Source of the DNA: Verrucomicrobiaceae bacterium
GTDB lineage: Bacteria; Verrucomicrobiota; Verrucomicrobiia; Verrucomicrobiales; Verrucomicrobiaceae
Assembly: GCA_027487315.1 (NCBI GenBank)
Contig: JAIYDW010000182.1
Location: 1 to 38,884, forward strand
Direction of reading: 5' to 3'
DNA length: 38,884 nt
The notes beneath the pieces are model-generated. The model worked only from the letters and a program-made list of their open reading frames with translations, ran no database searches and had not been told where the DNA came from. Both the position numbers and the translations under genes were made by a program. This document shows, one piece after another, positions 11,057 through 29,400 of the stretch (positions are counted from its first letter, which is position 1; each line of letters opens with the position of its first letter).

Positions 11057-11075
11057 GGCCGGTCAGTTGGATGCT

Positions 11076-11330: not shown

Positions 11331-11352
11331 GCTGGAAATTATCAATCACCAT

Positions 11353-11370: not shown

Positions 11371-11372
11371 TA

Positions 11373-11835: not shown

Positions 11836-12089
11836 CGCTTACCGAGGCTGCGGAATTCTTCATCTTCGGCCGCAATCCGGTGCAGATCCTCAAGCGGGAC
11901 CTTGAGGCCCCCACTCCGCACTTTGGGCAGTTTCCACGCCTGCTTTGGTGGGACTTCTTCTGGAAAGCGGGCAAGGAACAACTCCAACCCCCGGCGCGTC
12001 ATCTCCGCGAGAGAAATCTCACGCTTGGCGGCAAAGGTTTTGGCGCGCTGATAGAGCTCGTCGGGCAGTTGAATCTGGGTCCGTGTCAT
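11832..12089 (-). CDS. Ribbon-helix-helix antitoxin (VapB type), module 2
   Basis: An 85-residue protein starting at the ATG at 12089. The N-terminal MTRTQIQLPDELYQRAKTF and the helix EISLAEMTRRGLELFLARF form a ribbon-helix-helix DNA-binding domain. The basic, Pro-containing middle and acidic tail (HRIAAEDEEFRSLGKR) are probably the toxin-binding part. The stop codon overlaps the toxin start. Immediately upstream, 12098-12111 (ATTTACATCACTTG on the + strand) partly resembles the module 1 palindrome around a TGATGT core, so cross-regulation is possible but unproven. Confidence 0.87.
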   Translation of the reverse strand: MTRTQIQLPDELYQRAKTFAAKREISLAEMTRRGLELFLARFPEEVPPKQAWKLPKVRSGGLKVPLEDLHRIAAEDEEFRSLGKR

Positions 12090-12113
12090 GATGGAAGATT
12101 TACATCACTTGCC

Positions 12114-12375: not shown

Positions 12376-13395
12376 ATGAAACACCTGACCACCGCCCTAC
12401 TCGCGCTTGCCCTCATCCTAGGCTTCAGCCAAGCCCAAACCGCCGCCCCCAAGACCCCAGCCACCCCCAAACCCAAGTCGGCGGCAAAACCGAAAGCCCC
12501 GGCCAAACCCGCCGCTCCCGCCATCAAGCCCACGCTCGCCAACGTCCCCTACGGCAGCGATCCCAGCCAAGTCGTGGACTTCTACAAGTCCTCCTCCCAA
12601 ACACCCGCCCCCCTCATGCTCTTCATCCACGGCGGCGGTTGGAATGGCGGCTCCAAAGATCGTGTGATCGGCCTCAAAGAGTGCCTCGACGCCGGTCTCG
12701 CTGTCGTGTCCGTCGAATACCGTTTCGTTCCGAAGGCACACGCCGCCGGAATCAAGCCCCCCGTCAAATGGCCACTCGAAGATGCCGCCCGCGCCCTGCA
12801 GTTCGTCCGCAGCAAAGCCGCCGAGTGGAACATCGACCCCTCCCGCATCGGCGCCAGCGGCAGCAGCGCCGGCGCCTGCTCAAGCCTCTGGCTCGCCTTC
12901 CATGACGACATGGCCGACCCCAACAGCCCCGACCCCATCGCACGCCTGTCCACCCGCCTCACCTGCGCCGCCGTCATCGGTGCGCAAACCACACTCGACC
13001 CTCAGCAGATGAAGGAGTGGACCCCCAACAGCCGCTACGGCGGCCATGCCTTCGGCCTCGTTCGCGATCCCAAAAACAAGGACCCCCAGCACCAAAAAGA
13101 CAACTCCTTCGAAGCCTTCCTCGCCAAACGCGACGAGTTCATGCCCTGGATCAAGCAATACTCCCCCTACCACCTCGTCAGCGCAGGCGACTCACCAATC
13201 TACATGACCTACAATGCCGTTCCCGGCCTCGGTCAGGAGCAAAAAGACCCCACCCACACGTCCAACTTCGGCGTGAAATTGCAGGAACACTGCAAAGCCA
13301 ACGGCGTCCCCTGCGAACTCTGGTATCCCGGCTCTACCGAAACCAAAATCGCTACCGCCCACGAGTATCTCATCGCCACACTGAAGGCGAAGTGA
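12376..13395 (+). CDS. Secreted alpha/beta hydrolase (BD-FAE/acetyl esterase type)
   Basis: A 339-residue protein with a signal peptide (MKHLTTALLALALILGFSQAQ), a ~30-residue Pro/Ala/Lys linker, then a hydrolase domain. The oxyanion-hole motif HGGGWNGG is near residue 85, the nucleophile elbow GASGSSAG near 158-165, an Asp candidate in AGDSPIYM near 272, and the catalytic His in TAHEYL near 329. This architecture matches bifunctional feruloyl/acetylxylan esterases and lipase-like COG0657 enzymes. It opens a same-strand run with an SGNH hydrolase (45-base gap) and a sulfatase, suggesting removal of acyl groups from a sulfated polysaccharide. The 5' partial gene at 1-744 is a relative. Confidence 0.92.
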   Translation: MKHLTTALLALALILGFSQAQTAAPKTPATPKPKSAAKPKAPAKPAAPAIKPTLANVPYGSDPSQVVDFYKSSSQTPAPLMLFIHGGGWNGGSKDRVIGLKECLDAGLAVVSVEYRFVPKAHAAGIKPPVKWPLEDAARALQFVRSKAAEWNIDPSRIGASGSSAGACSSLWLAFHDDMADPNSPDPIARLSTRLTCAAVIGAQTTLDPQQMKEWTPNSRYGGHAFGLVRDPKNKDPQHQKDNSFEAFLAKRDEFMPWIKQYSPYHLVSAGDSPIYMTYNAVPGLGQEQKDPTHTSNFGVKLQEHCKANGVPCELWYPGSTETKIATAHEYLIATLKAK

Positions 13396-13440
13396 GTTGT
13401 CAGATTCGCCAGCACACCGCGTTTGAGCATCAGCCATCCC

Positions 13441-14112
13441 ATGAACTTTCGACTCCTCTTCGCCACCGCTCTCTGCCTGTCCACCGTCGCCATCGCTGAA
13501 ACCCCCAAGCCCAAACGTGCACCAAGCCCCGTCACCGCCCCCATCCAGGATGTGGCAGGCCTGCCGCGCGTGCTTCTGATCGGCGATTCCATCTCCATGG
13601 GCTACACCCTACCCACCAGGACCCTCTTGACCGGCAAAGCCAATCTGCACCGCATCCCCCAAAATGGCGGCCCAACCAAAAATGGCCTCGCCCACATCGA
13701 CAAATGGCTCGGCACAGGAAAATGGGACGTCATCCATTTCAATTGGGGCATCCACGACCTCAAATACATGCCTAATGGCAAACGCCAGGTCGAAGCCGCC
13801 GACTATGAAAAGAACCTCCGCACCCTCGTCGCCCGGATGAAACAAACGGGCGCCAAGCTCATCTGGGCCAGCACCACCCCCATCCCAGAGGGCGAACTGA
13901 GTCCCTCGCGCCGCTTCGGGAGCGTTCAGGAATACAACGCCATCGCCGCTCGCGTCATGACCGAGAACGGCATTGCCATCGACGATCTCAACGCGCACAT
14001 CGCCCCGCAGTTCGATCGCCTGCACAATCCCAAAGACCTGCACTACGGCACCGAGGGCTATCAGTTTCTCGCCCAAAAAGTCGCCGAGGAAATCGCCAAA
14101 GCCCTGCCGTGA
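13441..14112 (+). CDS. Secreted SGNH/GDSL hydrolase
   Basis: A 223-residue protein from the ATG at 13441 (MNFRLLFATALCLSTVAIAE gives a clean signal peptide; an in-frame start at 13423 would add a few polar residues). The SGNH blocks are visible: block I VLLIGDSISMGY near residues 44-55 with the catalytic Ser, a block III-like FNWGIHDLK near 101 where NWG replaces the usual GxND, and block V DLHYGTEGY near 200-208 with the Asp-x-x-His pair. This is an esterase, probably a carbohydrate O-acetylesterase given its neighbours. The stop codon overlaps a possible GTG of the next frame, but the sulfatase start at 14169 is better. Confidence 0.92.
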   Translation: MNFRLLFATALCLSTVAIAETPKPKRAPSPVTAPIQDVAGLPRVLLIGDSISMGYTLPTRTLLTGKANLHRIPQNGGPTKNGLAHIDKWLGTGKWDVIHFNWGIHDLKYMPNGKRQVEAADYEKNLRTLVARMKQTGAKLIWASTTPIPEGELSPSRRFGSVQEYNAIAARVMTENGIAIDDLNAHIAPQFDRLHNPKDLHYGTEGYQFLAQKVAEEIAKALP

Positions 14113-14168
14113 GCGGCGCCAATCAGCTTCCCAAAACGGCGGCCTTCGAAAACCTAACCTCTCCGATC

Positions 14169-15752
14169 ATGATCAAACACCTCTTCATCCCCCTTCTCAG
14201 CCTCCTCAGTTTTCAGCTGACCTCCGCAGCGGAATCAAAACCTAACATCGTCATCATCTACGCCGACGACCTCGGCTATGGCGATGTGCAATGCTACAAC
14301 CCCGAACGCGGCAAAATCCCCACGCCGCATATCGACAAGCTCGCCTCACAAGGCATGCGCTTCACAGACGGACACTCGTCCTCCGGTGTTTGCACCCCTT
14401 CCCGCTACACACTTCTCACAGGACGCTACCACTGGCGCACCGAATTGCAGAGCGGCATTGTTGGGGTGTTCGGCCCCCCCTTGATCGCGCCAGATCGCAT
14501 GACCATCGGCACCCTGGCCAAACAACACGGCTACCACACCGCCATCGTCGGCAAATGGCATCTCGGCTGGGACTGGCCCATTCCGGACGATCAAAAGAGG
14601 TTCTTCCAGTTCGCAGGCAAGAAGGGCAAAAACGATGAAGCCCCTGTTCCCACAGGCGAGCACCTCGCCGCCTGGCGTCAGGTCTTCACTCAACCCATCG
14701 CCGGAGGACCCACCACGCGCGGGTTTGATAGCTACTTCGGCACCGATATTCCCAATTGGCCGCCGTTCTGCTTCATTGAGAATGATCGCACCATCGGCGT
14801 GCCCAGCGTTTTCCTGCCTCCCGCAGATTTGGAAAACAACCGCGCCAGCAAGCAGGGTCCAGCCCTTGAGAATTGGAAACTCGAAGGCATCCTGCCCGCC
14901 CTCGGCGATCACGCGGTCGCCTTCATCGAACAGAAAGCCAAAACGCCCGAACCCTTCCTGCTCTTCCTGCCACTCACCACACCGCACACACCATTGGCGA
15001 TCAATGACGCCTGGAAAGGCAAGAGCGGTCTCAATCCCTTCGCCGATCTGGTGATGGAAACAGACGCCGTCATCGGTCGTGTGCTTGAGGCTCTCGACAA
15101 AAGCGGCGCAGCGGACAACACGCTCGTCGTGCTCACCTCCGACAACGGCTGCGCTCCTTACATCGGCGTGCAGGATCTGGAGCAGATGGGCCACTTCCCC
15201 AGCGGACCGCTGCGCGGTTACAAGGCCGACGCTTGGGAGGGCGGCCATCGCGTGCCTTTCATCATTCGCTGGACCAGCCAAGTAAAACCCGGCAGCACCT
15301 GCAGCCAACTGGTTCATCAGGCAGATCTCATTCGCACCTTTGCCGAAATTCTCGGATCCAACTTGCCCGACACCGCCGGTGAAGACAGCCACAGCCTGAT
15401 GCCTTTGCTCAAAGGTGAAGACAAACCCATCCGCGAAAACGCCATCAGCACCTCCATCGGCGGCACACCCGCCCTTCGGCTCGGCACTTGGAAATACATC
15501 GCCGCACCAGGTTCCGGTGGCTGGGGCAAAGGTGGCAATCAAATCCAGCCCATCCAGCTTTACGATCTGGCTGGTGACATCGGCGAAACCAACAACCTCG
15601 CCGCCGCACAACCCGACCGCGTCGCCCAGATGCAAGCTCTACTCGAAAAACTCATCACCAACGGCCGCAGCACCCCCGGCGCACCCCAAAAGAACGATGT
15701 CCAAGTGAAGCGCTACCCCGTCACCCCCAAAAAGCCCAAGGCAAAGGAGTAA
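14169..15752 (+). CDS. Secreted sulfatase, type I (formylglycine-dependent)
   Basis: A 527-residue protein. The ATG at 14169 gives the signal peptide MIKHLFIPLLSLLSFQLTSA; an in-frame GTG at 14109 overlapping the previous stop would bury that signal. The active-site signature is SSGVCTPSRYTLLTGR, where C75 would be converted to formylglycine. Metal ligands are expected in NIVIIYADDLGYGD near 26-39 and LTSDNG near residue 325. The GKWHLGW motif is near 135. The C-terminus ends with GRSTPGAPQKND followed by a Lys-rich tail. It hydrolyses sulfate esters, probably on a polysaccharide, in the periplasm or outside. It needs a formylglycine-generating or anaerobic maturase enzyme that is not in this window. 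It converges on the FAD oxidoreductase gene with a 56-base gap. Confidence 0.95.
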   Translation: MIKHLFIPLLSLLSFQLTSAAESKPNIVIIYADDLGYGDVQCYNPERGKIPTPHIDKLASQGMRFTDGHSSSGVCTPSRYTLLTGRYHWRTELQSGIVGVFGPPLIAPDRMTIGTLAKQHGYHTAIVGKWHLGWDWPIPDDQKRFFQFAGKKGKNDEAPVPTGEHLAAWRQVFTQPIAGGPTTRGFDSYFGTDIPNWPPFCFIENDRTIGVPSVFLPPADLENNRASKQGPALENWKLEGILPALGDHAVAFIEQKAKTPEPFLLFLPLTTPHTPLAINDAWKGKSGLNPFADLVMETDAVIGRVLEALDKSGAADNTLVVLTSDNGCAPYIGVQDLEQMGHFPSGPLRGYKADAWEGGHRVPFIIRWTSQVKPGSTCSQLVHQADLIRTFAEILGSNLPDTAGEDSHSLMPLLKGEDKPIRENAISTSIGGTPALRLGTWKYIAAPGSGGWGKGGNQIQPIQLYDLAGDIGETNNLAAAQPDRVAQMQALLEKLITNGRSTPGAPQKNDVQVKRYPVTPKKPKAKE

Positions 15753-15808: not shown

Positions 15809-17431
15809 TCACTTCACCGGCACTTCCAGCACCTGCTTATCCGCCAGCAAACGCTCCCGCAGTTTCGCATAACTCACGCTTTGCACGGAGGTGGCAGCTT
15901 CCATCGACATCACGGCGGCGGTGGCTGCGGATTGCGCGGCGGCCATGAAAGTGAACTCGATGCGATAGGCACCGTAGGCCACGTAGCTCGATGACGGGCA
16001 GGTGGGACTGAGGAGATTGGTGCATTCGGAGGCCTTGGGAATGAGGCAGCGATACGGGATGCCGCAGGGGATCCAGTCGGGCTCTTTGGAGACATTGAAG
16101 ACCGCGCCTTCATTCCACACGCGGCCGTCCTTCACGAGGCAACGAGCGCTGTGAAAGTCCGGCGGCCACCAGATCATGCCGACGCTGTCGTTCACGGGCT
16201 CGGGGTTGGTATTGCGAAGCTGCGCCTCGGTCAAAACGAAGTCACCGATCATGCGGCGGCCGTTGCGGACGTAAAAGGCACGCGGCCAGCCGCCGTTGTC
16301 GGTGAACTCATCTTTGCACAATCCCCACGCGGTCCAGGCCTCGCACTGCTTCGCGGGCACGGACTCGTCATGCGCCATGAACCAATACAAGCCCTGCATG
16401 TAATCGCGGCTCTCACGCAGCATCGCGTCGCGCTTGGCGTAGCTGGCGATGGGGTAGCGATGGTTCCATCCAGTAAAATTCGACGCCAGTGAGTGCCAGG
16501 TGCCGGGGTCGGTCTTGCCATTCGGCACCGCAGCATGCGGCGGACTGATGACGCCGCCCACGGCGAGGTAGCGCCGCTGCATCTCGTAGTGCGCCGGATT
16601 GTAGCTCGCGGGTTTTTCGAAGGGGAGTCGGTTCTTCGGGTCCTTTGTGAGGCAAAGGCGGAAGCAGTAGCCCTGGATGCTTTCGTCCGCCGCGCCGTGC
16701 TCGCCGAGCGGCGTGTCCTGCACGCCAAAGATCAGGCCGCTCTTCGCATCGCCCTGCGTCACATAGGGATCGATGGGTTTGTCGTGCTGCTTGTGCGTGG
16801 TGTCCGTGCGGATGCCGTTGTTCGTCTCGCCATACTTCGCATTGCCCTCGCGCCCCACGGCAAAGCTCAGGCCCGCGAACGCCAGCAGATCGCCCTCATA
16901 GGTCGCGTCGATGAACATCTTGGCCTTCACCTCGGCCCCACTTTCAAAATGCAGCGCCATGATGCGCGTGCCGTCCTTGGTCACGCCGTTCGTTTCCTTC
17001 AAACGATGCCCGCGCAGCACGGTGACGCCCGCTTCTTTCACCCACGCCTCCCAAACCGCCTCCGCCACATGCGGCTCAAAGCGCCACAGCGACGTGTTCT
17101 TGCCCTTGGCCGCCAGCATCGCCTCAAACGCCTCCGAGCGACCATACTGCGCACTCACGCGACGATAAAACTCCAACGCCAGCCCACCCACCGCCGGGCT
17201 GTTCTGAAACGGCTGGTTGTCGATGTCCGTGCCGCCCAGTCCCTCGACGCTCATACCCCCCAGATGCCGCCCCGCCTCCACCAGCACCACCTTCTTCCCC
17301 ATCTTCACCCCCTGCACCGCCGCAATGACTCCCGCGCTGGTGCCGCCGTAGATGCAGAGATCGGTTTCAGCCGGCGCTGCGGAGACCGAAAACGTGAAAC
17401 AAGCGAAAAAAGCGAGAAAGAGGGACTTCAT
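15809..17431 (-). CDS. Secreted FAD-dependent oxidoreductase
   Basis: A 540-residue protein from the ATG at 17431, giving the signal peptide MKSLFLAFFACFTFSVSAA. An upstream frame extension to 17530 lacks a signal and is probably untranslated. A Rossmann nucleotide-binding segment follows at once: CIYGGTSAGVIAAVQG (26-41) and VVLVEAG, then LGGMSVEGLGGTDID near 57-71. FIDATYEGDLLAFAG near 180 is the conserved FAD-contact block of the FAD_oxidored (PF12831) family. The family is frequent in polysaccharide-degrading members of the Planctomycetes-Verrucomicrobia group and may oxidise sugars or uronates; the substrate cannot be read from sequence. It is the last gene of the minus-strand glycan cluster, 108 bases after the SGNH gene. 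Confidence 0.92.
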   Translation of the reverse strand: MKSLFLAFFACFTFSVSAAPAETDLCIYGGTSAGVIAAVQGVKMGKKVVLVEAGRHLGGMSVEGLGGTDIDNQPFQNSPAVGGLALEFYRRVSAQYGRSEAFEAMLAAKGKNTSLWRFEPHVAEAVWEAWVKEAGVTVLRGHRLKETNGVTKDGTRIMALHFESGAEVKAKMFIDATYEGDLLAFAGLSFAVGREGNAKYGETNNGIRTDTTHKQHDKPIDPYVTQGDAKSGLIFGVQDTPLGEHGAADESIQGYCFRLCLTKDPKNRLPFEKPASYNPAHYEMQRRYLAVGGVISPPHAAVPNGKTDPGTWHSLASNFTGWNHRYPIASYAKRDAMLRESRDYMQGLYWFMAHDESVPAKQCEAWTAWGLCKDEFTDNGGWPRAFYVRNGRRMIGDFVLTEAQLRNTNPEPVNDSVGMIWWPPDFHSARCLVKDGRVWNEGAVFNVSKEPDWIPCGIPYRCLIPKASECTNLLSPTCPSSSYVAYGAYRIEFTFMAAAQSAATAAVMSMEAATSVQSVSYAKLRERLLADKQVLEVPVK

Positions 17432-17539
17432 GAGGTTTCTTGAATAGGTGCCCCAAAGCCCGATTTGGACAACGAAATTGCCGCGCATGCCCGGCGAGAC
17501 CTCCCAGCGATTCGAGCCGACGTTTGGCACACGAAGCGA

Positions 17540-18313
17540 TCAGCGCTGCCCCTCGGCCTTGTTCATCATCTCATGCAACTTGTCCGCGAAAAGCCGCCCC
17601 AGATCGACTTGGCCCTGCGCGGTAAAGTGGACCTCGTCGTCACCGACTTGGAGGGTATCGCAATCGACGAACTCCGCGCTGGTTTCCTGCGCTTGGCGAA
17701 CCAAAGGGGCGAAGGGAAACTTGTCCTTCGGCTGGCCGGCACGCAGACGGCTGCATGCGAAGAGCAGATTGGGCGTTTGCAGATCTTTCCGCGCGGCTTG
17801 GATGAAGGCTTGTAGATTGGCGGCATACGCCTCGGCCTTCTTCGAGTCCTTCGAATCACCGGAGCCTTGCACCATGATCAGACCGATGATCAGGATCGGA
17901 CGCACCTTGCGAGCGGCTTCCACTTTGCGAATGAGTTCCCAGTAAAGCGAATCCGGCGTCGCGGGCGACCACACGGTATCGAGGCTGGTGCCATGCGACG
18001 AATGCTTGATGATGCCGATCTGCCGCTTGAGCTTCTCGCTCATGCTCGCAGCAAAAGACACCTCGGAGCCGAAGCCTCGCTTGTTCACCTTCTCCGGCGA
18101 CACCGGCAGCCACTGCGTCCCATCAAAGAACAACGCGTTGGTTTGCTCAGCCTTCAGATCCTGGGGCAGTGCCTCCAACTTCGAGCGACCACCGCTCATG
18201 TTGCTGCCACCAGCGAAGATGAAGACGGGCAAAGGATCGTCCGTAGCGAGTAGTGACGTCTGAATGCCGAGGATCGAAAGCAGTAGAGAGAGGAGTTTGG
18301 AAATTCGGTTCAT
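17540..18313 (-). CDS. Secreted sialate O-acetylesterase-like SGNH protein
   Basis: A 257-residue protein with a signal peptide (hydrophobic residues about 6-22, cleavage near LLAT). Block I is PVFIFAGGSNMSGG (about 29-42), related to the usual GQSNMxG of the SASA/CE6 carbohydrate esterases, with Gly in place of Gln. The GFGSEVSFA segment (about 80-88) and the Ser/His-rich IKHSSHGTSLDTVW (about 101-114) are typical of the family. The motif normally written W-x-Q-G-E-x-D appears as MVQGSGDS, lacking the Glu. The C-terminal catalytic pair is DEVHFTAQGQ. It would remove acetyl groups from sugars, but the altered motifs leave activity uncertain. Its ATG overlaps the stop of the gene remnant upstream (TGATG), showing inherited translational coupling. 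Confidence 0.87.
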   Translation of the reverse strand: MNRISKLLSLLLSILGIQTSLLATDDPLPVFIFAGGSNMSGGRSKLEALPQDLKAEQTNALFFDGTQWLPVSPEKVNKRGFGSEVSFAASMSEKLKRQIGIIKHSSHGTSLDTVWSPATPDSLYWELIRKVEAARKVRPILIIGLIMVQGSGDSKDSKKAEAYAANLQAFIQAARKDLQTPNLLFACSRLRAGQPKDKFPFAPLVRQAQETSAEFVDCDTLQVGDDEVHFTAQGQVDLGRLFADKLHEMMNKAEGQR

Positions 18314-18456
18314 CAGGGTTGGGTTGTTGTAGCGATCACATGGACGTCATCAATCTCGATGCCTTTCTCGTCGCCGTTTTGCATCCTCAGCAGCTTGCGC
18401 TTGCCTGCGTTGAATTTCGCCCGGCTGAACGCGGGTATGGAATCAACGACTCCGTC
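18313..18456 (-). pseudogene. Orphan C-terminal remnant of a lost secreted protein
   Basis: In the frame ending with the TGA at 18313-18315, about 48 residues read as normal protein: VDGVVDSIPAFSRAKF..., then KRKLLRMQNGDEKG and IEIDDVHVIATTTQP. There is no start codon or upstream body; the frame runs straight into the 3' end of the sulfatase gene, shifted by one base. The IDDVHV ending resembles the close of LamG-like beta-sandwich domains, but this is too short to assign. Its stop overlaps the ATG of the SGNH gene, so a complete gene once stood here in the operon. A deletion that also removed the sulfatase tail explains the arrangement. Confidence 0.6.
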
Positions 18457-19993
18457 CACGCGCAATGTCCGCCTTCAGCGCGGCGAAGAGTTCCTTCGCT
18501 TTGTCGGGCTCTTGCGTGAAGACGTTCGTGGCTTCGCCGGGATCGGTGCGGAGGTTGTAGAGTTGGAACTTTTCAGTGGGGCCTTTGCCGGTGGTTTCGA
18601 CGATGGCGTCAGGCGTGATTGTGCCGTCCTTCACGGTATAGATCCAGGAGGGCAGAATGAGTTTCCAGTCGCCATCGCGGATGGCGAGCGTGTAGGAGCC
18701 GTAGTTCACGTGGACTATGCCGTTGCGAATGGGTTGCGCGGGTTTCTCGCCGCGCAGCAGCGGTGAGATGTCGAAGCTGTCCTCGCCGGCATCGTTCGGG
18801 AGTTTTTCACCGAGCAGCGCCGCGATGGTGGCCATCATGTCGCTGAAGCAGATCAACTCGTCGCATGAGCTGCCTGCTTGGATCTGCCCCGGCCAGCTCG
18901 CGATGAAGGGCATGCGATGTCCGGCTTCGGTGAGTGCGCCTTTCATGCCATTCCACGGACCGGCGGCGCGGTGGCCGAACTTCTCGATGTCTTGCGGATA
19001 CCAGACGGGACCGTTGTCGCTGGAGAAGACGATGAGCGTGTTGTCCCGCAGCTTCAGCTTGTCCAAAGTGGTCATCACCTGGCCGATCATGGCGTCCACG
19101 TTCATCACATAGTCGCCATATTGACCCGCGCTGCTCTTGCCTTTGAACTCGCTCGCAGTCGCCCACGGCGCATGAGGCGCGGGGATGGCGTAGTAGAGGA
19201 AGAAGGGGGCACTGTTCTTGGTTCCCTGTTCTTGGTTCTTGGTTCTTTTCTCGAGCCAGGCATCCGCCTTGCCGGCGATGGTGGAGAGATAGCCTTCGAA
19301 CTTCCATCCTGGTGCCGCGAGGCCTTTGCGCCAGTGTGCGCCTTGCGTCTCGGGATTCGTCACGCCTTCGCCGGGATGGTCTTCGATGGTCTCCGTCGGT
19401 GCGACGACGAAACGTTTGTTCTCGATGAACGCATACGGTGCCTGTTCCGGTGCATCGAAGCCGAAGTAGTCATCGAAGCCAAAGTCCACGGGCGACATCT
19501 TCAGCGTGCCATCCGCCTGAGCGGTCGTGGACATGCCCTGATGCCACTTGCCGACGCAAGCCGTCGCATAGCCCTGCCGCTTCATCAGCGTGGCGAGGTT
19601 CAAGCGCTGCGGCTCCGACTGGAGCATCGGCAGCGGGAAATGCAGCACCTCGTGACCGTTGCGGGTCGTTTTTTTGGCGTCCTTGGAGTTCCATGTGCGA
19701 TACGGCATCCGTCCCGTGAGCAGGCTATACCGGCTCGGCACACAAATGGACGCCCCCGCATGAGCATTCGTGAACTTCATGCCCTCCCCCGCGAGCTTGT
19801 CGATGTTCGGCGTCGCGATCTTCGACTGCGGATTGAAGCACTGCGGATCGCCCCAGCCCATATCATCGACGAGGATGATGAGGACGTTGGGCCGTGACGC
19901 AGGCACTCCTGCCTGCGGTGTTCCTGAAGCGCCATGCAGAACGGCCAGCGGCGCGAGAAGCAGAGCCGTGATGAGTGAGAGGATGTGTTTCAT
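18443..19993 (-). CDS. Secreted sulfatase, type I, with shortened C-terminus
   Basis: A 516-residue protein with a signal peptide (MKHILSLITALLLAPLAVLHGA). Sulfatase features: VLIILVDDMGWGDP near 38-50, the formylglycine motif ICVPSRYSLLTGR with C84, GKWHQGM near 150, and IVFSSDNGPVW near 320. It stops at ADIARGRSR, whereas the sulfatase at 14169-15752 continues from its GRS with TPGAPQKND and a tail. The missing end coincides with the gene remnant at 18313-18456. A Gln/Lys/Asn insert (RTKNQEQGTKNS) in the middle is encoded by five tandem heptanucleotides (19214-19248). Its start overlaps the stop of the beta-helix gene upstream by four bases (ATGA). It probably desulfates the same glycan attacked by the beta-helix proteins. 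Confidence 0.93.
   Translation of the reverse strand: MKHILSLITALLLAPLAVLHGASGTPQAGVPASRPNVLIILVDDMGWGDPQCFNPQSKIATPNIDKLAGEGMKFTNAHAGASICVPSRYSLLTGRMPYRTWNSKDAKKTTRNGHEVLHFPLPMLQSEPQRLNLATLMKRQGYATACVGKWHQGMSTTAQADGTLKMSPVDFGFDDYFGFDAPEQAPYAFIENKRFVVAPTETIEDHPGEGVTNPETQGAHWRKGLAAPGWKFEGYLSTIAGKADAWLEKRTKNQEQGTKNSAPFFLYYAIPAPHAPWATASEFKGKSSAGQYGDYVMNVDAMIGQVMTTLDKLKLRDNTLIVFSSDNGPVWYPQDIEKFGHRAAGPWNGMKGALTEAGHRMPFIASWPGQIQAGSSCDELICFSDMMATIAALLGEKLPNDAGEDSFDISPLLRGEKPAQPIRNGIVHVNYGSYTLAIRDGDWKLILPSWIYTVKDGTITPDAIVETTGKGPTEKFQLYNLRTDPGEATNVFTQEPDKAKELFAALKADIARGRSR
19214..19248. repeat. Five-unit heptanucleotide tandem repeat inside the sulfatase gene
   Basis: On the + strand the units are GTTCTTG, GTTCCCT, GTTCTTG, GTTCTTG, GTTCTTT. 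Seven is not a multiple of three, so gain or loss of one unit would shift the reading frame of the sulfatase. The encoded residues fall between the ADAWLEK helix and the FFLYYAIPAPHAPW strand, apparently a surface loop. Confidence 0.85.
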
Positions 19994-21942
19994 TTCGCTT
20001 TTGAGTTTGTCTTTGGCACATCTTGGAGCTGGTTGCCATCCAGCGTGATCTCTTTCGTTGCTTCCAGACCGACTACGCGGCTTTTACTCGTGGAATCGAG
20101 CTGAGTGTGGTTTTCGGGATCGGTGAGGGTGTTGCCTTTTAAGGTCACACGGGTGCTGTGGCGGAGGAGGATGGCTTGGCGGTCGGTTTCGTCGTCGGGT
20201 CGGGCGAGGAGGGTGGCGCGGACGGGGGAGTCGATGACGTTGTTTTCGATGCGAGAGTCTTGGATGCCGATGAGGTTCATGGCGGGGCCGCCGCTACGGG
20301 TGATCGTGTTGCCGGTGATGATGAGGCGCTCGATGGGTGGGGTGCCGAAGCCGCCTTGCGCATTGTGCGCGTGCGCCTCGATGGCGGGCTGATGGGGGCG
20401 TGAGCTGACATCAATAAAAGTGTTGTCGGTGATGGTGATGTCGCTGGGGATGCCGCCGACGAGGCCCATGCCGGTGTTGAGGCTGATGTTGCTACCCATG
20501 CGGGTGAAGGTGCAGCCACGCACGAGGCCGGGGCCGGACATGATGAGCAGGCGCTGGAAGTTGTCCTCCCAGCGGCAGTTTTGCACCACCCAGCCCGCGC
20601 ATTCGTGGTCGAGCCACTCGGCCTGCGCTTCGGCAAAGGGCGTGGCGTCTTGATCGAGGGTGAGTTGGTAATCGTGGTGCGAGATGAGCTTCGCCTCGCC
20701 GAGCAAAGCCCCGTTTTTGCGATGGATGAAGCGCAAGCGGTCGCCAGCACGGGCGTTGCGCAGCGTGGGAAGCAGCGCGCCATTGATCTCCAGAGTGACC
20801 TGTTTGCCGGACACGGATTTCACCTTGCCCCAGATGCCGTGGAAGTTCTGCAAATCATCGGCGGTGTGGCGGATGGTGACGTTGTCCATCACGCAGCCGT
20901 AGCGCGTGGAACGGCACAGGAAGCCGTCCGCGCCTTTCCATTGGCTGGTGCCGGGTCGCGGGCCGAAGTAGCAGTCTTTCCACAGATGCGCACCATCGCC
21001 GCCGCTCTCGCTGGGGCCGCCTTTGGCCACATAAACGCTGACGCCGTGCAGGGTGATGTTCGCTGAATCATCCAGCACGATGGCCCCCGCGCCGGTGTAG
21101 AGGCAGGAAAGGCCGTCGCCCACGCGCACCACGCCGAGGTCGCCATAGGCACGCTCCCAGTTCGCATCGTGAAGGCGCTCCATGAGCTGCGGTTCGAGCA
21201 TGTTCACCCAGTAACGCCCGCCATCGGAAGGTGTGATGTCTTTGTAGCGCAGCTTCCGCACACCGGCCTGCATGTCGTAGAGCGGCACGCAGAAGCGGCC
21301 GTCGCTCTTGAAGGGAAACAAGCGTTGCTCATCGGCCCCTTTGTAGCTCGTGGGCACCACCACACCGGGCGAGGGCTGGATCTCAAAGCGATTGCCCTCG
21401 CGGTCGATGCGCGTGATGCGGCCCTCGATGCAGCCGCGTGTGCCGCGATCAATGATCGCACCACGAAGGACGATGTTGCGGCAGTTGCGAAAGCCCACGC
21501 AGCGATGCCCCGGCGGCATTTGCTTGTCATCCAGGTCGAACCAAAACGTCGCGCCCGTAGCATCGATCACAAAGGGATGCTCGGCATCGCGCTGCAGGTT
21601 CTCAAAGCCGAGCGGGTAAATCACCTTCGCCCCCTGCCAGCGCTCCTGGCCGAAGCGATAGTCCCCCGGCGGGATGCGCACACTCTCCGCACCGCTTTCA
21701 AACGCCTTCATCACCATCGGCATCACGCCTTTTCCCAGCTCCCGCTGCGCCTCCTTCTCCGCCTCGGTGAACTGCGGCCCGGCGGGCAGGTCAAAACCGA
21801 AGCGATACTCCGCCGGCGGTGGTGACTTGGATTCCAAGATCACGCGTTGATGCGGCGAGAGGTGATCGCGAGCATCGGCTCCAAAAAGCGAAACCGGAGA
21901 CGCGAGAAAAAATGAGCCAAAGAGGATCAGCAAAGGTTTCAT
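19990..21942 (-). CDS. Secreted right-handed beta-helix protein, paralog A
   Basis: A 650-residue protein starting at the ATG at 21942 (MKPLLILFGSFFLASPVSLFGA, a good signal peptide; the in-frame ATG at 21954 is possible). The N-terminal block PPAEYRFGFDLPAGPQFTEAEK and the segment AGAESVRIPPGDYRFGQE, here with SGAESV, open the helix. Repeated coils with Asn/Val/Ile ladders follow, for example ITITDNTFID, LIITGNTITR and SRIENNVIDS (residues about 470-560), typical of parallel beta-helix polysaccharide lyases and glycosidases (Beta_helix/NosD-like). Catalytic residues cannot be named. It is clearly paralogous to 24050-25849. It is translationally coupled to the sulfatase by a 4-base overlap and follows the second beta-helix gene by 24 bases. 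Confidence 0.9.
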   Translation of the reverse strand: MKPLLILFGSFFLASPVSLFGADARDHLSPHQRVILESKSPPPAEYRFGFDLPAGPQFTEAEKEAQRELGKGVMPMVMKAFESGAESVRIPPGDYRFGQERWQGAKVIYPLGFENLQRDAEHPFVIDATGATFWFDLDDKQMPPGHRCVGFRNCRNIVLRGAIIDRGTRGCIEGRITRIDREGNRFEIQPSPGVVVPTSYKGADEQRLFPFKSDGRFCVPLYDMQAGVRKLRYKDITPSDGGRYWVNMLEPQLMERLHDANWERAYGDLGVVRVGDGLSCLYTGAGAIVLDDSANITLHGVSVYVAKGGPSESGGDGAHLWKDCYFGPRPGTSQWKGADGFLCRSTRYGCVMDNVTIRHTADDLQNFHGIWGKVKSVSGKQVTLEINGALLPTLRNARAGDRLRFIHRKNGALLGEAKLISHHDYQLTLDQDATPFAEAQAEWLDHECAGWVVQNCRWEDNFQRLLIMSGPGLVRGCTFTRMGSNISLNTGMGLVGGIPSDITITDNTFIDVSSRPHQPAIEAHAHNAQGGFGTPPIERLIITGNTITRSGGPAMNLIGIQDSRIENNVIDSPVRATLLARPDDETDRQAILLRHSTRVTLKGNTLTDPENHTQLDSTSKSRVVGLEATKEITLDGNQLQDVPKTNSKAK

Positions 21943-21966
21943 GGGGGGATTCATTTCAGTGGGAAG

Positions 21967-23907
21967 TTACGGGTTGGCTTTCACGCGATTGTCTTTGAGC
22001 ACTTCTCCAGACACCCGGACATCGGTGCAGTCCTTCAGGATCAGAGAGCGATAGCTTTCTCTCGGCTCAAAAAAGCCAGTGATGGATTCGAAGGTGTTTC
22101 CGCGCACCAACGCGCCGTGAACGTTGATCAGGGAGATGCCGGCATCTTTGGAATCGCGGATCACGTTGTCTTCGATGCGAAGGCGCTCGGAGCGGGCGGC
22201 TGGTTGTCCGGCTTCGATGCTGTGCCAGCCGCAGAGAGTGACGGTGTTTCGCCGCACGGTCACCATGTCCGCCGAGCGGGCTATCGTCTGAGGGCCTTCG
22301 GGACAGCCGAGATAGATGCCGATGCCTGCGATGTTCTCGAACGTGTTGTTCTCGATGAGCGCGCCGTAGCCTTTGAATTTCAAACCGTGCCCGCGACCAC
22401 CATTCTGCCGGTTGTTCCGATAGACGTAGCGCTGCGTGCCCTGATTGTTGCTCGCGATGGTGCTGGCTGGCAACGACGGCAGCGGTCGGTCGAGCGTGAC
22501 TTTGACTTCGTCCTTCACGCTAGTGTCCACGGTCACCGCGATGGCTTCGCCGACGGCTCGATTGGTTTTTTGATCGGCAAAACGCAAGCGGTCACCGGGA
22601 AAGATCAGCTCGTCCCAGGGCTGGATTTTCATGGTCAGCGTCGGCTCATCGTGCTGGTGCAGCAGCTCGTAGTCGAAGAAGTAGCCGGCGTTGTAGTTGT
22701 CATCGCCGAGGAGGTGAAAATCACACTGCTCGATCCACGCGGCGATGCGTCCGCCCTCCGAGGAGGCGTGACCCGCGAGCCGACAATCCGGGAAACGCGT
22801 GTCAGGCACCACATCCACATTCAGATACGCGACCTTGTCATTGCGTCCGCCATTGCCGGAAATCGCCCCCGGAGTATCGACGAGCGTGATGTCTTTGAGC
22901 ACGAGCTTGTCGTTGTTTTGGTTTTGAATGAAGCCCGGCCGGTAATGCGTGGCCGCGATCCGATCTCCGACCTGCCAATGACTGCGCTCCCAGTCGCCGC
23001 GGTCCTTTTCATCGGCCGAGCCGATGCGATACACGCCCTCGCTCAGCTTTGTCCTCGCGGTTCCTGCTCGGAAGCCTCCCGCATACTTGCCGGGGAACTT
23101 GGGATGCACCTTGATCAGGAAGGTGTTGTTCCCGCTCTCGGGCCAGTAAGTTTCCAAATCCTTCACCGGATACGACGACGGGATCGCCACCTCGATCTCG
23201 CGCGTCTCCGGCAGGACCTTCGTCACCTCCATCATGATATGGCCAGGCGTGGCCCATTTCATCGTGAGCTGCCGGAACTCGACGTTCTGACTCCCCGAGA
23301 CCTCGGAAAACAGCGTCGCGCTCACCATCGTAATGGAGGAGCCATTGCCCTCGACGCGGAATCCCGGCGCGTGATCGATTCGGAAAGCCACGCGGTCCTC
23401 CATCGGCCCCAGCGTGTAGTCACCCTTCTCAAAAGCCACCTCCACCGTGTGCCCAGCCTTGGCCGTCGCCGCAGCCTTGCGCAGCGTCTCCAGCACCATG
23501 GTGCTGTCACTGCCCTTCGCGATGGTGAACCGCTTCTCCGGCGCGACGATGGTGAAGCGAAACGTCGCCGACCACGGCCCGGCCGCGGGCTTCTGAATGC
23601 GCACCCGCCAGAAATACTCCCGCGGCTCCGTGAGGCTGACCATGGAGTAGAAACGATTCATTCCGCCACCGATCACATCCGTGGCGAGCACCCTCCGAAA
23701 ATCCGAATCCGCCGCAATCTGAATCTCACACTCCGGCTGATCATCGAGCGTCATCTCCGGGCCGCGCCATTGGAAATGCGGATGGTAGTTGATGAGCTTC
23801 TCGCCATTCGCAGGCTCGAAGGGTTCGAGATGACTGCCTCCGCCAGCAGCGTGGAGTGTGGCCAACGGTGCGATGATGAGGGCGATAACGAGGAGGTGTC
23901 TGAGCAT
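21967..23907 (-). CDS. Secreted beta-helix protein with N-terminal fibronectin-like domain
   Basis: A 646-residue protein from the ATG at 23907 (MLRHLLVIALIIAPLATLHAA). The open frame reaches 24048 but the extra part is encoded by a palindromic repeat and is probably untranslated. Residues about 25-130 form an Ig/FnIII-like domain (PANGEKLINYHPHFQWRG, CEIQIAADSDFRRVL, YFWRVRIQ, PWSATFRFTI), as at the N-terminus of several polysaccharide lyases. Residues about 140-640 are a parallel beta-helix with coils such as GALIENNTFENIAGIGIYLG and LRIEDNVIRDSKDAGISLIN. Overall layout suggests a polysaccharide lyase or glycosidase of the Beta_helix superfamily. It is diverged from the other two but stands between them in the operon. 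Confidence 0.9.
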   Translation of the reverse strand: MLRHLLVIALIIAPLATLHAAGGGSHLEPFEPANGEKLINYHPHFQWRGPEMTLDDQPECEIQIAADSDFRRVLATDVIGGGMNRFYSMVSLTEPREYFWRVRIQKPAAGPWSATFRFTIVAPEKRFTIAKGSDSTMVLETLRKAAATAKAGHTVEVAFEKGDYTLGPMEDRVAFRIDHAPGFRVEGNGSSITMVSATLFSEVSGSQNVEFRQLTMKWATPGHIMMEVTKVLPETREIEVAIPSSYPVKDLETYWPESGNNTFLIKVHPKFPGKYAGGFRAGTARTKLSEGVYRIGSADEKDRGDWERSHWQVGDRIAATHYRPGFIQNQNNDKLVLKDITLVDTPGAISGNGGRNDKVAYLNVDVVPDTRFPDCRLAGHASSEGGRIAAWIEQCDFHLLGDDNYNAGYFFDYELLHQHDEPTLTMKIQPWDELIFPGDRLRFADQKTNRAVGEAIAVTVDTSVKDEVKVTLDRPLPSLPASTIASNNQGTQRYVYRNNRQNGGRGHGLKFKGYGALIENNTFENIAGIGIYLGCPEGPQTIARSADMVTVRRNTVTLCGWHSIEAGQPAARSERLRIEDNVIRDSKDAGISLINVHGALVRGNTFESITGFFEPRESYRSLILKDCTDVRVSGEVLKDNRVKANP

Positions 23908-23970
23908 GCTTAGTAAACGGACAAGCAGGAACAAACTATGGCAACAAAATGCGAACGAAAGGCCGAAAGG

Positions 23971-24051
23971 AAAGTGGCTGTGGGTTCGCTTCGCGGCTTC
24001 GCAGTAGCCGCATCTGATGGCGAATGATTCGGCTAAAGCCGAAGCCACTTT
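23971..24051. repeat. REP/BIME-like palindromic element, copy A
   Basis: The element runs from AAAGTGGCT to AGCCACTTT. The right hairpin TTCGGCT-AA-AGCCGAA is at 24028-24043. The left hairpin is longer and different, GCGGCT-TCGCAGT-AGCCGC at 23993-24011, making this copy 81 bases instead of about 62. Its last bases supply the TAA stop of the beta-helix gene at 24050. It separates that gene from the next one, so it could mark an RNA processing or attenuation point in the operon. Confidence 0.85.
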
Positions 24052-25849
24052 ATGGGTCCGTGAGCGGTCGGTTATCTTTGACGACGATGTCCCGGCACTG
24101 TTTCAGCAGCACCGGTTGCGAGTCGTCCTGGGGCGATGCTTTGCCGGTGAGCGCACGAGGCTTGCCGGAGTTTTCAAAAGTGTTGCCCGTGATGCTGCCG
24201 CCGGACACGAGGCTGAACTCAATGGCACGTCGGCCTGAGTTGATGAAGCGGTTGCCTTGCACGGTGAGGTCGCTCAGCAACGGCGTGCTGGCGGCGTAAT
24301 TCAACGACTGAAAGCCGGCCGACAGCGCCACGCCATCGGGATGGATAGCGACGTCTTCGAAGACGTTGTCGAGGATGCGGATGCCGTGACAGAGGCCGCC
24401 TTCGTTGCGGGTGAAGAAATTGCTCGCCAACTCGATCCCAGAGCCGATGCGGGTGAAGCGGCAGTTGCGCAGCGTGCCTCCGCGGCTGCCTTGAATGAGA
24501 AACCGCTGGTAGCAATCGCGGAAATCGCAGTCGCGGACTTCCCAGCCGTTGTTTTGCCAGCGCGGATTCTCCGCCACGGCCCGGGCCAGAGGCGCGGCAT
24601 CGCGGTCGAGCGTCAGTTCCAGATGCTTCGCTGACTCGACGACGGCGCTTCCCAGCGGTGCGCCGGTTTGCGAGTCATAGAACTGCAGCCGATCGCCGGG
24701 ATGGGCGGGCATCTCGGAATCGCGATGCAGCGTGATCGTGCGGCCTGAGACCTTCTCGATGTAACCCCAGAGGCCGTTGAAATTGATCAGGTCGTCGGTG
24801 GTGTGCAGCATGGTGCAGCCAACGAGCGTGCTGCCACGCTCCATTCCGCCGCTGAGGAAGCCATCGGAGCCCTGCCAGTGACAGGTGCCCGGTCGCGGGC
24901 CGAAGAAGCAGTCGTTCCAAAGATGCCCGCCGCCGCCACGCGCTTCGAGCAGGCCGCCTTTGGTGATGTAGTTGCGCACGCCGACGAACGTCATGCCGGT
25001 GCAGCCGATGACGCCAATCGCCGTGGTGGAGGTGCGGATCAGGCACAAGCCATCGCCCACTTGCAGCGTGCCGCTGGTGCCATAAGCACGCATCCACGCG
25101 GGATCGCTGTTGGCCTTCAGCAGTTCGGACTTCGCATCCAGCACGACCCAAAAGCGTCCGTGCGCCGTGCCTGGTTCCACGCGGCTAAAGTTCAGCCCGG
25201 CCTGGCTGGTGACCTGAAAGGAATAGAAAGCAGCGCAGAACGTGCCGTCGCCATTGAAAGGCACCAGCCGCCCACTCGTGGTTCCACCGGCCTTCGTGAG
25301 ATCGAGCGTGCCTTGCGTCGCCTCGATCTCGATGCGGTTTCCCTCCGTGTCGATCTGCGTGATGCGGCCCTCCATGCAGCCACGCGGATCACGATCCAGC
25401 GTGGCCCCCTCCAGCGTCACATGGCTGCAATCGACAAAGCCAAGCGCGAAGTGATTGCTGGGCCATGCGTCCGGCGGCAGATCGAACCAAAACGTGACCC
25501 CATGCGCGACGATGCGAAACGGCTTCGCGGAGTCGCGCTTCAGGCCGCGAAAATCCAGCGCATACACCGGGCCGTCCTTATCCCAGGTCTCCTGACCAAA
25601 GCGATAGTCCCCCGGAGCCAGCGTCACCGACTCCGCCCCCGCCTCAAACGCCTTCCGCACCATCGGCACGACCTGCGCCCCCTTCGCCCGCTGCTCCACT
25701 TTCTCCGCCTCAGTGAACACCGGCCCGGCAGGCAGATCAAAGCTGAACCGATACTCCGCAGCCGGTGACGGCGAGACAGGATCGCGAGCATAGGCGGCGT
25801 GGAGCGAAGTCAGCGACAGAGCGGCGAGGAATAGAAGCGTGGATCTCAT
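24050..25849 (-). CDS. Secreted right-handed beta-helix protein, paralog B
   Basis: A 599-residue protein from the ATG at 25849 (MRSTLLFLAALSLTSLHAAYA, a signal peptide). An in-frame extension to 25909 is encoded by a repeat and is unlikely to be real. It matches paralog A (19990-21942) over its whole length: AEYRFSFDLPAGPVFTEAEK, GAESVTLAPGDYRFGQETW, VTFWFDL, GCMEGRITQIDTEGNRIEI, FGPRPGT, TTDDLINFNGLWG. Late coils (LRNCRFTRIGSGIEL, IRILDNVFEDVAI) show the beta-helix ladder. It is the first gene of the minus-strand glycan operon. There is no Shine-Dalgarno sequence, because the palindromic element sits one base from the start codon. Probably a polysaccharide lyase or glycosidase; not proven. 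Confidence 0.9.
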   Translation of the reverse strand: MRSTLLFLAALSLTSLHAAYARDPVSPSPAAEYRFSFDLPAGPVFTEAEKVEQRAKGAQVVPMVRKAFEAGAESVTLAPGDYRFGQETWDKDGPVYALDFRGLKRDSAKPFRIVAHGVTFWFDLPPDAWPSNHFALGFVDCSHVTLEGATLDRDPRGCMEGRITQIDTEGNRIEIEATQGTLDLTKAGGTTSGRLVPFNGDGTFCAAFYSFQVTSQAGLNFSRVEPGTAHGRFWVVLDAKSELLKANSDPAWMRAYGTSGTLQVGDGLCLIRTSTTAIGVIGCTGMTFVGVRNYITKGGLLEARGGGGHLWNDCFFGPRPGTCHWQGSDGFLSGGMERGSTLVGCTMLHTTDDLINFNGLWGYIEKVSGRTITLHRDSEMPAHPGDRLQFYDSQTGAPLGSAVVESAKHLELTLDRDAAPLARAVAENPRWQNNGWEVRDCDFRDCYQRFLIQGSRGGTLRNCRFTRIGSGIELASNFFTRNEGGLCHGIRILDNVFEDVAIHPDGVALSAGFQSLNYAASTPLLSDLTVQGNRFINSGRRAIEFSLVSGGSITGNTFENSGKPRALTGKASPQDDSQPVLLKQCRDIVVKDNRPLTDP

Positions 25850-26053: not shown

Positions 26054-26419
26054 CTATTTTTCCGATGTAGGGATCGTCCCCGGCACCCATGTGAGGCCCC
26101 ACTCCTGAAGGGCGCTCAGGATGGGCAAGAGAGCTTTGCCTTTGGAGGTGAGCTGGTAGGCGAGCCTCTTTGAGCCTTCGGAGATGGGAACTTGAACAAC
26201 GAGTTGTTCCTCTGTGAGACGCTCGAGTCTGTCGCTGAGAATATTGGTCGGGATACGCTCTGGAGAGGCAGCAAAGTCTTTGAACCGGGTGCTGCCGCTG
26301 GCGAGGTCGCGGATGAGCAACAAGGTCCACCGGTCTCCGATGATGTCCAAGGCGCACGCCAAGGGGCAGGAAGACCGGTGGGCCTGTGGTTTGGCACTTT
26401 TAATGAGGCTGGGCTTCAC
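26054..26419 (-). CDS. HxlR family transcriptional regulator
   Basis: A 121-residue winged-helix protein beginning at a GTG at 26419, overlapping the 3' end of the RND pump gene by 20 bases. The signature CPLACALDIIGDRWTLLLIR near residues 18-37, with the Cys conserved in this family, is followed by FKDF and ERIPTNILSDRLERLTEEQLV, the HTH and wing. HxlR proteins are dimeric and often sense aldehydes, quinones or oxidative stress through that cysteine. As the last gene of the efflux operon it may modulate the operon or a separate target. Its stop is followed by the intergenic palindrome at 25965-25978, a possible target. Confidence 0.9.
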   Translation of the reverse strand: MKPSLIKSAKPQAHRSSCPLACALDIIGDRWTLLLIRDLASGSTRFKDFAASPERIPTNILSDRLERLTEEQLVVQVPISEGSKRLAYQLTSKGKALLPILSALQEWGLTWVPGTIPTSEK

Positions 26420-29400
26420 CTTGCGGGTTGGGATGGTTGTATTCCCCTGGGTCCACGCGGAACCAGATGGCGTAGAGGGCAGGCAGGAAGGCCAGCGTCA
26501 GCACCGTGCCGACGGCGGTGCCGCCGATGAGCACGTAAGCCATGGAACCCCAGAAGACGGAATGCGTCAGCGGCATGAACGCCAGCACGGCCGCGAGGGC
26601 GGTGAGAATGACCGGGCGTGATCTTTGCACGGTGGCCTCGATGATGGCTTGATAGGGAGTGTGCCCTTCTTGCTGATTGGTGTGGATTTGGCCGATCAAA
26701 ATGAGGGTATTCCGCATGAGGATGCCCGAGAGACCAATCAAGCCGAGGATGGCATTGAATCCAAAGGGTTGCTGGAAAAGCAGCAATGCCGGAACGGCTC
26801 CGATGAGCCCGAGCGGGCCCGTCAGCATGACCATCCACATGGCCGAGAAGGAGCGCACTTGGACGATGATGATCGCCAGCATGAACAGCAACATGACCGG
26901 GAACAGCGGAGCAAGAGCGACGTTGGCTTTGGATGACTCCTCGCTCGAACCTGCGACTTCAATGCGGTAGCCGTCGGCAAGCGATGCACGCAGGGGTTCA
27001 AGTTTGGCCCAGATGGCGGCGGAGACATCTGGCGGCTGGGTTGTTTCACTGTTGTCGCCACGGACGGTCACGGTTGGCTCACGGTCGCGACGTTTGATGA
27101 GCGGGGCTTCGGATTGAACTTCGATGCTCCCGATCTGAGTGAGCGGGATGGTTTTACCACTCCGATTCATGAGCGTGAAGTTCTCCAGCCTGGCTGGGTC
27201 GAGCCGATCTTCACCTGAGCTACGGACCATGAGGCTGACTGCACGGATGTCTTCACGGACCTGTGTGATCGTCATGCCGTTGAGGAGGAACTGAAGCTGC
27301 TGCGATACTTCCTGGGGTGAGAGGCCGATGAGCTGCAAACGCTCTTGATTCAAAACGATCTGCAGTCTGGGCACTCGCTCGCCCCAGTCCACGTTGACCG
27401 TGCGCATGTTTGGATCGCCACGCATGATCTCAGCCACGGAGTTGGCGATTTCACCAAGCTTTGACGGATCAGGCCCGCTGACACGAAAGGCGACGGGAAA
27501 TGGCGAGTAGGGGCCGAAAACCAACTGGCTGGCGCGTATCCGGGCTTCCACGGCCAAACCGTCAACGGCAGCCTGCCGAAGGCGTATCTTGAGGCTGTCT
27601 CTTGCCTCGGCATTCGGTGTTAGAACCACGATTTTAGCAAAGGATGGATCCGGCAATTCGGGATTGTAAGAGAAGAAGAAGCGGGGTGCTCCGGCTCCGA
27701 TATAGGCGGTGACGGTTTTGGCTTCAGGCTGCTTCGCCAGCCAGCTTTCGACTTTCTTAACCGCAGCGCTCGTTGTCTCGATGCTGGTGCCCAGTGGTAG
27801 CTGGACTTCCACCAATAGCTCAGGCCGGTCTGACTGAGGGAAGAACTGCTTCTTCACGGGCACCATGCCAGCGCCAGCGGTCACGAAGGCGACAAGGACA
27901 AGCGCGGCCACCGTGTATTTCCTCCGCACACACCAGACGACGAAACGCCGCAAGCGCTGGTAGCCAGGAGTGGAATAGAGTCCTGCATGGCCTTCTGCGG
28001 GCGGTTTGATATCCGGCAGGAGCTTCACGCCAAGGTAAGGGGTGAAAACCACGGCCACGATCCATGAGACGATCAGGGAGAATCCGACAATCCAGAAAAT
28101 GTTGCCGGCATACTCGCCTGCCGTGGATCGGGCGAAGCCCACGGGCACAAATCCGACCACCGTCACCAGTGTGCCCGAGAGCATGGGGCCAGCGGTGTGA
28201 CTCCACGCGTAGGCTGCGGCCTGGATGCGGTTCATGCCCTCTTCCATTTTCACCACCATGGACTCGATGGCGATGATGGCGTCATCCACCAGCAGCCCGA
28301 GGGAAATGATGAGTGCCCCGAGAGTGATACGATCAAACACACGGTCTGTGAGCTTCATGATGACAAACACCACGCCGAGCGTCAGCGGAATGGCTGCCAC
28401 CACGACGATCCCCACCCGCCATCCGAGGCTCAAGAGGCTAACCAGCATGACCACACCGACGGCCATCGCGAACTTGATCATGAACTCATTCACGGCAGAG
28501 CTGATGTTGACGGCTTGGTCGGTGATCTTTTTCAGACTCACGCCCAGAGGCAAATTGGATGCAATCTTGGTGCTCTCTGACTGAAGTGCATCTCCCAGCT
28601 CCAGCCCATTCCAACCGTCTCTCATGACCACGCTCAACAGCAGCGATGACTGCCCGTTGTGACGCACAAGGAAGGTGGCGGGGTCCTCGTAGCCACGTTT
28701 GACCTCAGCAATGTCTGACAGTTTGAAACTCCGCTGCCCGGCCACAATCGGGGTATCGCGCACCTTGTCGAGGGTGGTGTAAGCTCCGTCCAGCCGGACG
28801 AACACTTGCTTTCCATCGGTATCCACGGAACCGGCTGGAGTGACGGCGTTCAGTCGTGCCAGAGCGTTGAAGACATCGGCTGGCGAGATGTTCAACGAGG
28901 ACAACCGTGCGTTGGAGAACTCGACAAAGATCCGCTCCTGTTCCTCGCCGACGATGTCCACCTTCTTGACGCCCGGCACATGCAGAAACCGTTGCCGGAG
29001 ATCCTCGGCGGTGCGGGTGAGCTGGTTCATTGGCATTCCAGGTGCCTCGATTGAATAGAGAGCGAAGGAGACATCGGAATACTCATCGTTCACAAACGGC
29101 CCCATGGTGCCTTGCGGCAGTTTGCGAGCCTCATCCCCCAGCTTCTTCCTGGCTTGGTAGAACTGTTCCGCCACTTCCTTCGGCGGCGTTTTGTCGCTGA
29201 GCTGGAGGGTCATCAAGGCCAGGCCGGGACGTGTGATGGTCTCGACGCGGTCATACCAGCTTAGCTCTTGGAGTCGCTTTTCCATCGGCTCTGCCACGAG
29301 GTCCTGCATCTCCTGGGCAGTGGCTCCGGGCCACACGGCAGACACGGTGAGCACTTTGATCGTGAAAGATGGATCCTCTGCGCGTCCCAGGTGAAAGTAG

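Follow-up and report, generated by a model that had tools for sequence, protein, structure and literature searches.

GH110-superfamily beta-helix proteins beside sulfatases and esterases in a Verrucomicrobiaceae contig: predicted exo-glycosidases for a sulfated, acylated glycan

The lambda-carrageenan polysaccharide utilization locus (PUL) of Pseudoalteromonas distincta U2A, made up of GH110A/B, S1_8, S1_15, GH2 and GH150, is among the closest described systems to the locus considered here. In this pathway GH110A requires prior 2-desulfation by S1_8 and the S1_15 enzymes take off the 6-sulfate, with the sulfatases having to act before GH110A/B (PMC12549532). In the related enzyme PdGH110B, D344 is the general acid, while D321 and/or D345 activate water (PMC7939477). 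Freshwater Verrucomicrobia have sulfatases beside extracellular putative pectin lyase proteins and PSCyt genes (He et al., 2017; PMC5615132), and the fucose/rhamnose (FCSP) loci of marine/aquatic Verrucomicrobiota have GH29, GH95, GH141 and sulfatases (PMC8857213, PMC13174399). The stretch examined here, referred to as the window, is one whole contig of 38,884 bases (JAIYDW010000182.1) from the genome of a Verrucomicrobiaceae bacterium (5.87 Mb in 256 contigs), and it possesses a minus-strand run of six genes at 15809-25849, these being three beta-helix proteins (A, B and C), an S1 sulfatase, a SASA esterase and a FAD_oxidored enzyme. The three beta-helix proteins are probably (at a probability of roughly 0.62) GH110-superfamily exo-glycosidases, secreted or periplasmic, that work with the sulfatases and esterases.

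Like the U2A PUL, the window combines several GH110-type enzymes with S1 sulfatases, and the S1_15A/B enzymes of that PUL rank among the nearest solved relatives of the window's sulfatases. Unlike it, no GH150 or GH2 was identified in the window, which adds acyl esterases and a FAD oxidoreductase and belongs to a freshwater-type host. The neighbourhoods described by He et al. (2017) likewise have sulfatases beside extracellular proteins of beta-helix type and PSCyt genes in the vicinity (6613-10500 in the window), but the term GH110 has 0 occurrences in the text of that paper. As in the FCSP loci, GH29, GH95 or GH141-like genes adjoin some relatives of A and C, and a fucoidan-specific reading was considered on that account; it was not adopted since a Pfam search of the window's own genome found no GH29, GH95 or BMC shell gene, its one GH141_M match lying on another contig. 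An earlier note on this DNA had proposed a new glycan-degradation locus. Its novelty is overstated, as the gene order is that of a shuffled module and similar loci were described in 2017 (PMC5615132); sulfatase/'pectin lyase' neighbourhoods and fucose loci are already known, and what is new here is the GH110 link together with the catalytic residues.

Kinship of the beta-helix proteins to GH110

Above the Pfam cut-off, the beta-helix proteins have Beta_helix/NosD-type matches only, and an NCBIfam search of them gave nothing useful. The earlier note's remark that no known polysaccharide lyase (PL) or glycoside hydrolase (GH) family is evident is thus right as far as Pfam goes, but these proteins are tied to GH110 by comparisons of profile and fold. 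In single-sequence phmmer searches against the PDB, GH110 7jw4 was the sole match of C (E=0.0044) and GH110 8pvs the best match of B (E=2.6e-6), while A had no match. Broad family profiles placed GH110 at the top, with E=1.7e-27 for A/C and 3.9e-65 for B. Because the broad alignments might include near-GH110 members, narrow profiles were also run, and the A/C-only profile (A4) and the B-like-only profile (A3) both gave GH110 first (E=2.1e-11 and 4.1e-22 respectively). HHalign against Akkermansia-type GH110 gave 98.6% for A/C and 99.5% for B. Homology to GH110 is therefore observed for all three proteins, at 15-18% identity; A and C are 42-43% identical to each other, and A and B about 25%. GH141 was also considered as the family of A and C, but the GH141-type structure 5mqp reached only E=4e-5 with a low TM in Foldseek, and GH141 was not among the profile matches listed, an absence that does not by itself make the families unrelated.

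Structure prediction, which the earlier note had put forward as a check, gave a GH110 fold for C. The AlphaFold model of C, built with 18 relatives, has a pLDDT of 82.5 and a pTM of 0.85, and in Foldseek 15 GH110 chains lead its matches (best E=1.5e-21; next fold 1.9e-6). VIA-align against GH110 gave Z of about 25-28 over 503-517 residues (Z 28.3 over 512 residues at 3.2 A), whereas epimerases, lyases and polygalacturonases align over about 300-350 residues, which is the helix alone. The GH110 match of the model covers its full length, with a predicted beta-helix plus two added beta-barrel domains.

In the profile alignment, D366/D367 of C correspond to D344/D345 of PdGH110B and D343 to D321, while N370 and R468 correspond to N348 and R453. 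Across the A/C-type rows D366, D367 and N370 are found in 18/18, D/E343 in 18/18 and R468 in 17/18, so that putative equivalents of D321, D344 and D345 are present in every row. In B-type rows the aspartate pair D449/D450 is invariant (13/13). Like PdGH110A/B, the Akkermansia enzyme 8pvs and AgaBb, the window's proteins have a fold match extending beyond the beta-helix (C), the aspartate pair, a third carboxylate (A/C) and the N348/R453 equivalents (A/C); unlike these enzymes, they lack most of the galactose-subsite residues, barrel I and a shared phylogenetic position.

In a 55-row maximum-likelihood tree, whose GH110 rows include no Bacteroidota or marine members, A/C, B and the GH110 proteins bearing PF23763 form separate clades, each supported at 100/100. 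The GLAA-B barrel I model PF23763 has no match in the window's genome at E<=1e-5 but does match in one related genus (17 genomes) and in one other genome, while the barrel II model PF23764 has a sub-threshold match on B only (E=0.02). Since most of the galactose residues, the barrel I model and the position in the tree are not shared, A/C and B are best read as two divergent GH110-superfamily lineages outside GH110 proper. A recently created CAZy family may already cover these clades.

Proposed function and alternative readings

The proteins would act on terminal sugars through single-displacement (inverting) hydrolysis, in which D366 of C, the counterpart of D344 in PdGH110B, would be the general acid and water would be activated by D367 and D/E343. 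The S1 sulfatases and the SASA, GDSL and BD-FAE esterases, which are co-located with the beta-helix genes, would first strip the sulfate or acyl groups that block the pocket, by analogy with the order in lambda-carrageenan breakdown, thereby unblocking terminal residues for the GH110-like enzymes. The target is probably a sulfated, acylated polysaccharide from which sugars would be removed one at a time; the sugar released may be of galactose type, of fucose type or another, and the algal substrates that the earlier note named (fucoidan, carrageenan, ulvan) are candidates only. Hydrolytic activity, the exo mode and this division of labour are inferences, whereas the fold of C, the homology of all three proteins, the conserved catalytic residues and the co-location with sulfatases and esterases are observed. 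The central idea of the earlier note, a locus built on beta-helix enzymes that breaks down a sulfated and acylated glycan, is supported by the glycosidase-type catalytic centre and by relatives lying in neighbourhoods rich in sulfatases and GH genes.

A number of points weigh against these assignments. B has A428 at the position aligned with D321, which appears as A/S/G in its narrow subclade, and the position of N348 is variable in the wider B alignment. The B model is unusable at a pLDDT of 50.5, its alignment being shallow (sequences of the window and related loci only), so the assignment of B rests on sequence. In the subsite mapping, taken from the profile alignment rather than from superposition, the equivalents of the galactose -1/+1 residues R265, R451, E480 and W486 are not kept, the R451 position being F/Y in A/C; the subsite residues kept in A/C are N348 (N370), R453 (R468) and in part E488, which is not conserved in the C subclade. 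With these residues not conserved, the specificity probably differs from that of GH110 and a loss of activity is possible. Gene order also differs between genomes, so there is little support for all six genes acting together. In favour of the proposed function, 25 S1 sulfatases are found within 10 kb of A/C members (346 kb of flanks, the window itself included) compared with 6-9 expected (about 3-4 fold), but these loci are not independent and the expected density comes mainly from one genome, in which the count is at least the value used. The comparison was made with genome density because sulfatase-rich genomes could partly explain the enrichment.

The earlier note had left the choice between lyases and glycosidases, and of these the glycosidase is favoured, a lyase being less likely because the nearest relatives in sequence and fold are GH110 hydrolases and the catalytic aspartates are kept. 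It is quite improbable that the three proteins are polysaccharide lyases or beta-helix enzymes resembling epimerases: the AlgE4/AlgE6 epimerases, the RbmB lyase and a PL6 alginate lyase match the helix core after GH110, with Z of 20-25, and Foldseek also matches FdlA, a fucoidan lyase, at E ~7e-6, but GH110 is far ahead in the sequence profile, covers about 190 more residues than the lyase and epimerase folds and has its catalytic aspartate pair invariant here. Ordinary GH110 alpha-1,3-galactosidases with a sulfated galactan as their substrate, like those of the lambda-carrageenan PUL, would belong to the same superfamily and follow a precedent (PMC12549532), and the S1_15 galactose-6-sulfatases of that pathway are among the best solved relatives of the S1 sulfatases. 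This reading is nonetheless improbable, as the galactose-recognising residues are mostly absent, the barrel models are missing or sub-threshold, the clades are separate from Akkermansia GH110 at full support and no GH150, GH2 or S1_8 partner was identified in the window.

It is similarly improbable that the beta-helix proteins, or some of them, have no catalytic activity and are, for example, surface binding proteins or remnants, with B the likeliest case. The absent D321 equivalent and the varying N348 position of B speak for it, as do loci that are shuffled and partly decayed (a PF06439-like remnant is described below), but in both clades the aspartate pair has stayed invariant despite deep divergence, and A/C hold all three carboxylates. 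A bolder extension of the exo-glycosidase reading, unlikely as a whole, is that A/C and B are two new GH families of non-galactose specificity acting on a freshwater sulfated glycan, beside an oxidative route in which the secreted FAD enzyme would produce a 3-keto sugar for cleavage by a PF06439-like protein, intact in relatives but reduced to a remnant here. Such an oxidative 3-keto route could only be hypothesised at present; the FAD enzyme occurs with a PF06439-like gene in the related loci L028 and L037, and it has no solved relative at E<=1e-5.

Gene layout and related loci

The six-gene run, in the order A, B, C, S1 sulfatase, SASA esterase and FAD_oxidored, is flanked on one side by an efflux gene set and on the other by a convergent plus-strand group, and the coordinates are given in Table 1. 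Pfam bears out the composition of the run given in the earlier note, as well as its opposing group of a BD-FAE esterase, a GDSL/SGNH protein and a second S1 sulfatase. With likely starts assumed (A at 25849, B near 23907 and C at 21942 or 21954), Sec-like N-termini were read by inspection on all six minus-strand products, in keeping with the signal peptides that it had claimed. Its statement that SusC/SusD is lacking also stands for the 20 window proteins scanned, in which there is no such domain, the three efflux genes at 26400-32051 (named by inspection) being unscanned.

Table 1. Coordinates of the beta-helix genes, their neighbours and the gene remnant in the window
Feature	Position	Strand	Remarks
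Beta-helix A	24050..25849	-	~599 aa from ATG 25849; Pfam Beta_helix only; A/C clade, predicted exo-glycosidase
Beta-helix B	21967..23907	-	Second GH110-superfamily lineage; weak N-terminal Ig_Rha78A_N-like match
Beta-helix C	19990..21954	-	A/C clade, GH110 superfamily; predicted exo-glycosidase
S1 sulfatase, motif CVPSR	18443..19993	-	PF00884 E=3.2e-48
PF06439-like (3-keto-disaccharide hydrolase/DUF1080) 3' remnant	18316..18468	-	Protein match to L028/L037
SASA-family carbohydrate esterase	17540..18313	-	PF03629 E=1.9e-36
Secreted FAD-dependent oxidoreductase (FAD_oxidored)	15809..17431	-	PF12831 E=1.2e-89; start probably near 17431
BD-FAE-type alpha/beta-hydrolase esterase	12376..13395	+	PF20434 E=7.4e-22
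SGNH/GDSL hydrolase	13423..14112	+	PF13472 E=4.2e-12
S1 sulfatase, motif CTPSR	14109..15752	+	PF00884 E=3.8e-52

Both S1 sulfatases score well above the PF00884 cut-off of 25 bits (165 and 178 bits) and possess the C-x-P-S-R motif. The best solved relative of the minus-strand enzyme is 6s20 (a GalNAc-6-sulfatase) and those of the plus-strand enzyme are 6s20 and 7oze, with S1_15A/B within the top seven in both cases.

The ATGA that the earlier note reported at 19990-19993 is confirmed: it holds both the stop of C and the start of the minus-strand sulfatase, joining the two genes. The TGATG at 18313, which had been taken for translational coupling, does not couple the esterase to the sulfatase, the sulfatase stop being at 18443, 130 bp off. 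In L028 and L037 an intact gene for a 230-residue protein matching PF06439 (E=2.6e-5, slightly below the curated cut-off) is found between the sulfatase and the SASA gene, with the same TGATG overlap with SASA, and the window retains only the last ~50 codons of this gene. The remnant is 69-73% identical over 51 aa to the C-termini of the L028/L037 proteins (E 4e-16 to 7e-18). As the gene is intact there and only its 3' end is left here, the TGATG is a relic of a stop/start overlap with a deleted PF06439-like gene.

A scan of 84,980 species genomes turned up relatives of C with 70-95% identity at 17 loci. All are Verrucomicrobiota by name, some named from ponds, and their distribution in the phylum is patchy (11/388 sampled genomes). 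The gene after C is the sulfatase in L041, SASA in L035 and L040 and the FAD gene in L038, and A-C pairs recur in L047 and L050. The sister locus L035 keeps the convergent BD-FAE/GDSL/sulfatase group at 96-97% identity and has a GH141-like beta-helix gene a few genes upstream of C, in a module that shares 76-95% identity with one on a different contig of the window's genome. Further A/C relatives adjoin GH29 (L021, L024), GH95 and GH97 (L022) or GH78 (L026). Viral contigs scanned with both profiles (A/C and B) yielded no relatives, and thus no phage link was seen.

Some further features of these loci may be mentioned. A protein of ~575-630 residues with no Pfam match directly adjoins A/C-type genes in L021 (12928-14655, minus strand) and L025 (7605-9497, minus strand). 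A- or C-type genes are split in two frames in L049 (6406-8361), L047 (8167-9995) and L044 (810-2722), possibly through frameshifts or assembly errors. In L029 (9341-11968, minus strand) FAD_oxidored is fused to BNR_2, and a B-like gene, a BD-FAE esterase gene and a GDSL gene are close by. In the window itself, the plus-strand region 6613-10500 holds a PSCyt1/PSCyt2/PSD1 and DUF1501 gene pair of the 'Planctomycete-specific cytochrome' type, and PSCyt-type genes are also near C relatives in L036, L038, L041 and L043. Two tandem PIN-domain genes (10610-11056 and 11392-11835) lie on the minus strand within 10610-12104, each preceded by a short ribbon-helix-helix antitoxin-like ORF (11079-11345 and 11835-12104), together forming a duplicated VapBC-like pair with copies 779 bp apart. 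A protein of ~905 residues with no Pfam family above cut-off (33647-36364, minus strand) adjoins a PocR/AraC-type regulator, and its relatives share loci with A/C-type genes in L043 and L089.

Verrucomicrobia in lakes have large sets of sulfatases, and the GH110 link gives their generic 'Beta_helix' proteins a testable catalytic pair, D366/D367. It also suggests a working order of desulfation, deacylation and exo-cleavage. If the specificity is indeed for a sugar other than galactose, the superfamily, now in use for converting blood groups and breaking down carrageenan, would gain a glycosidase family.

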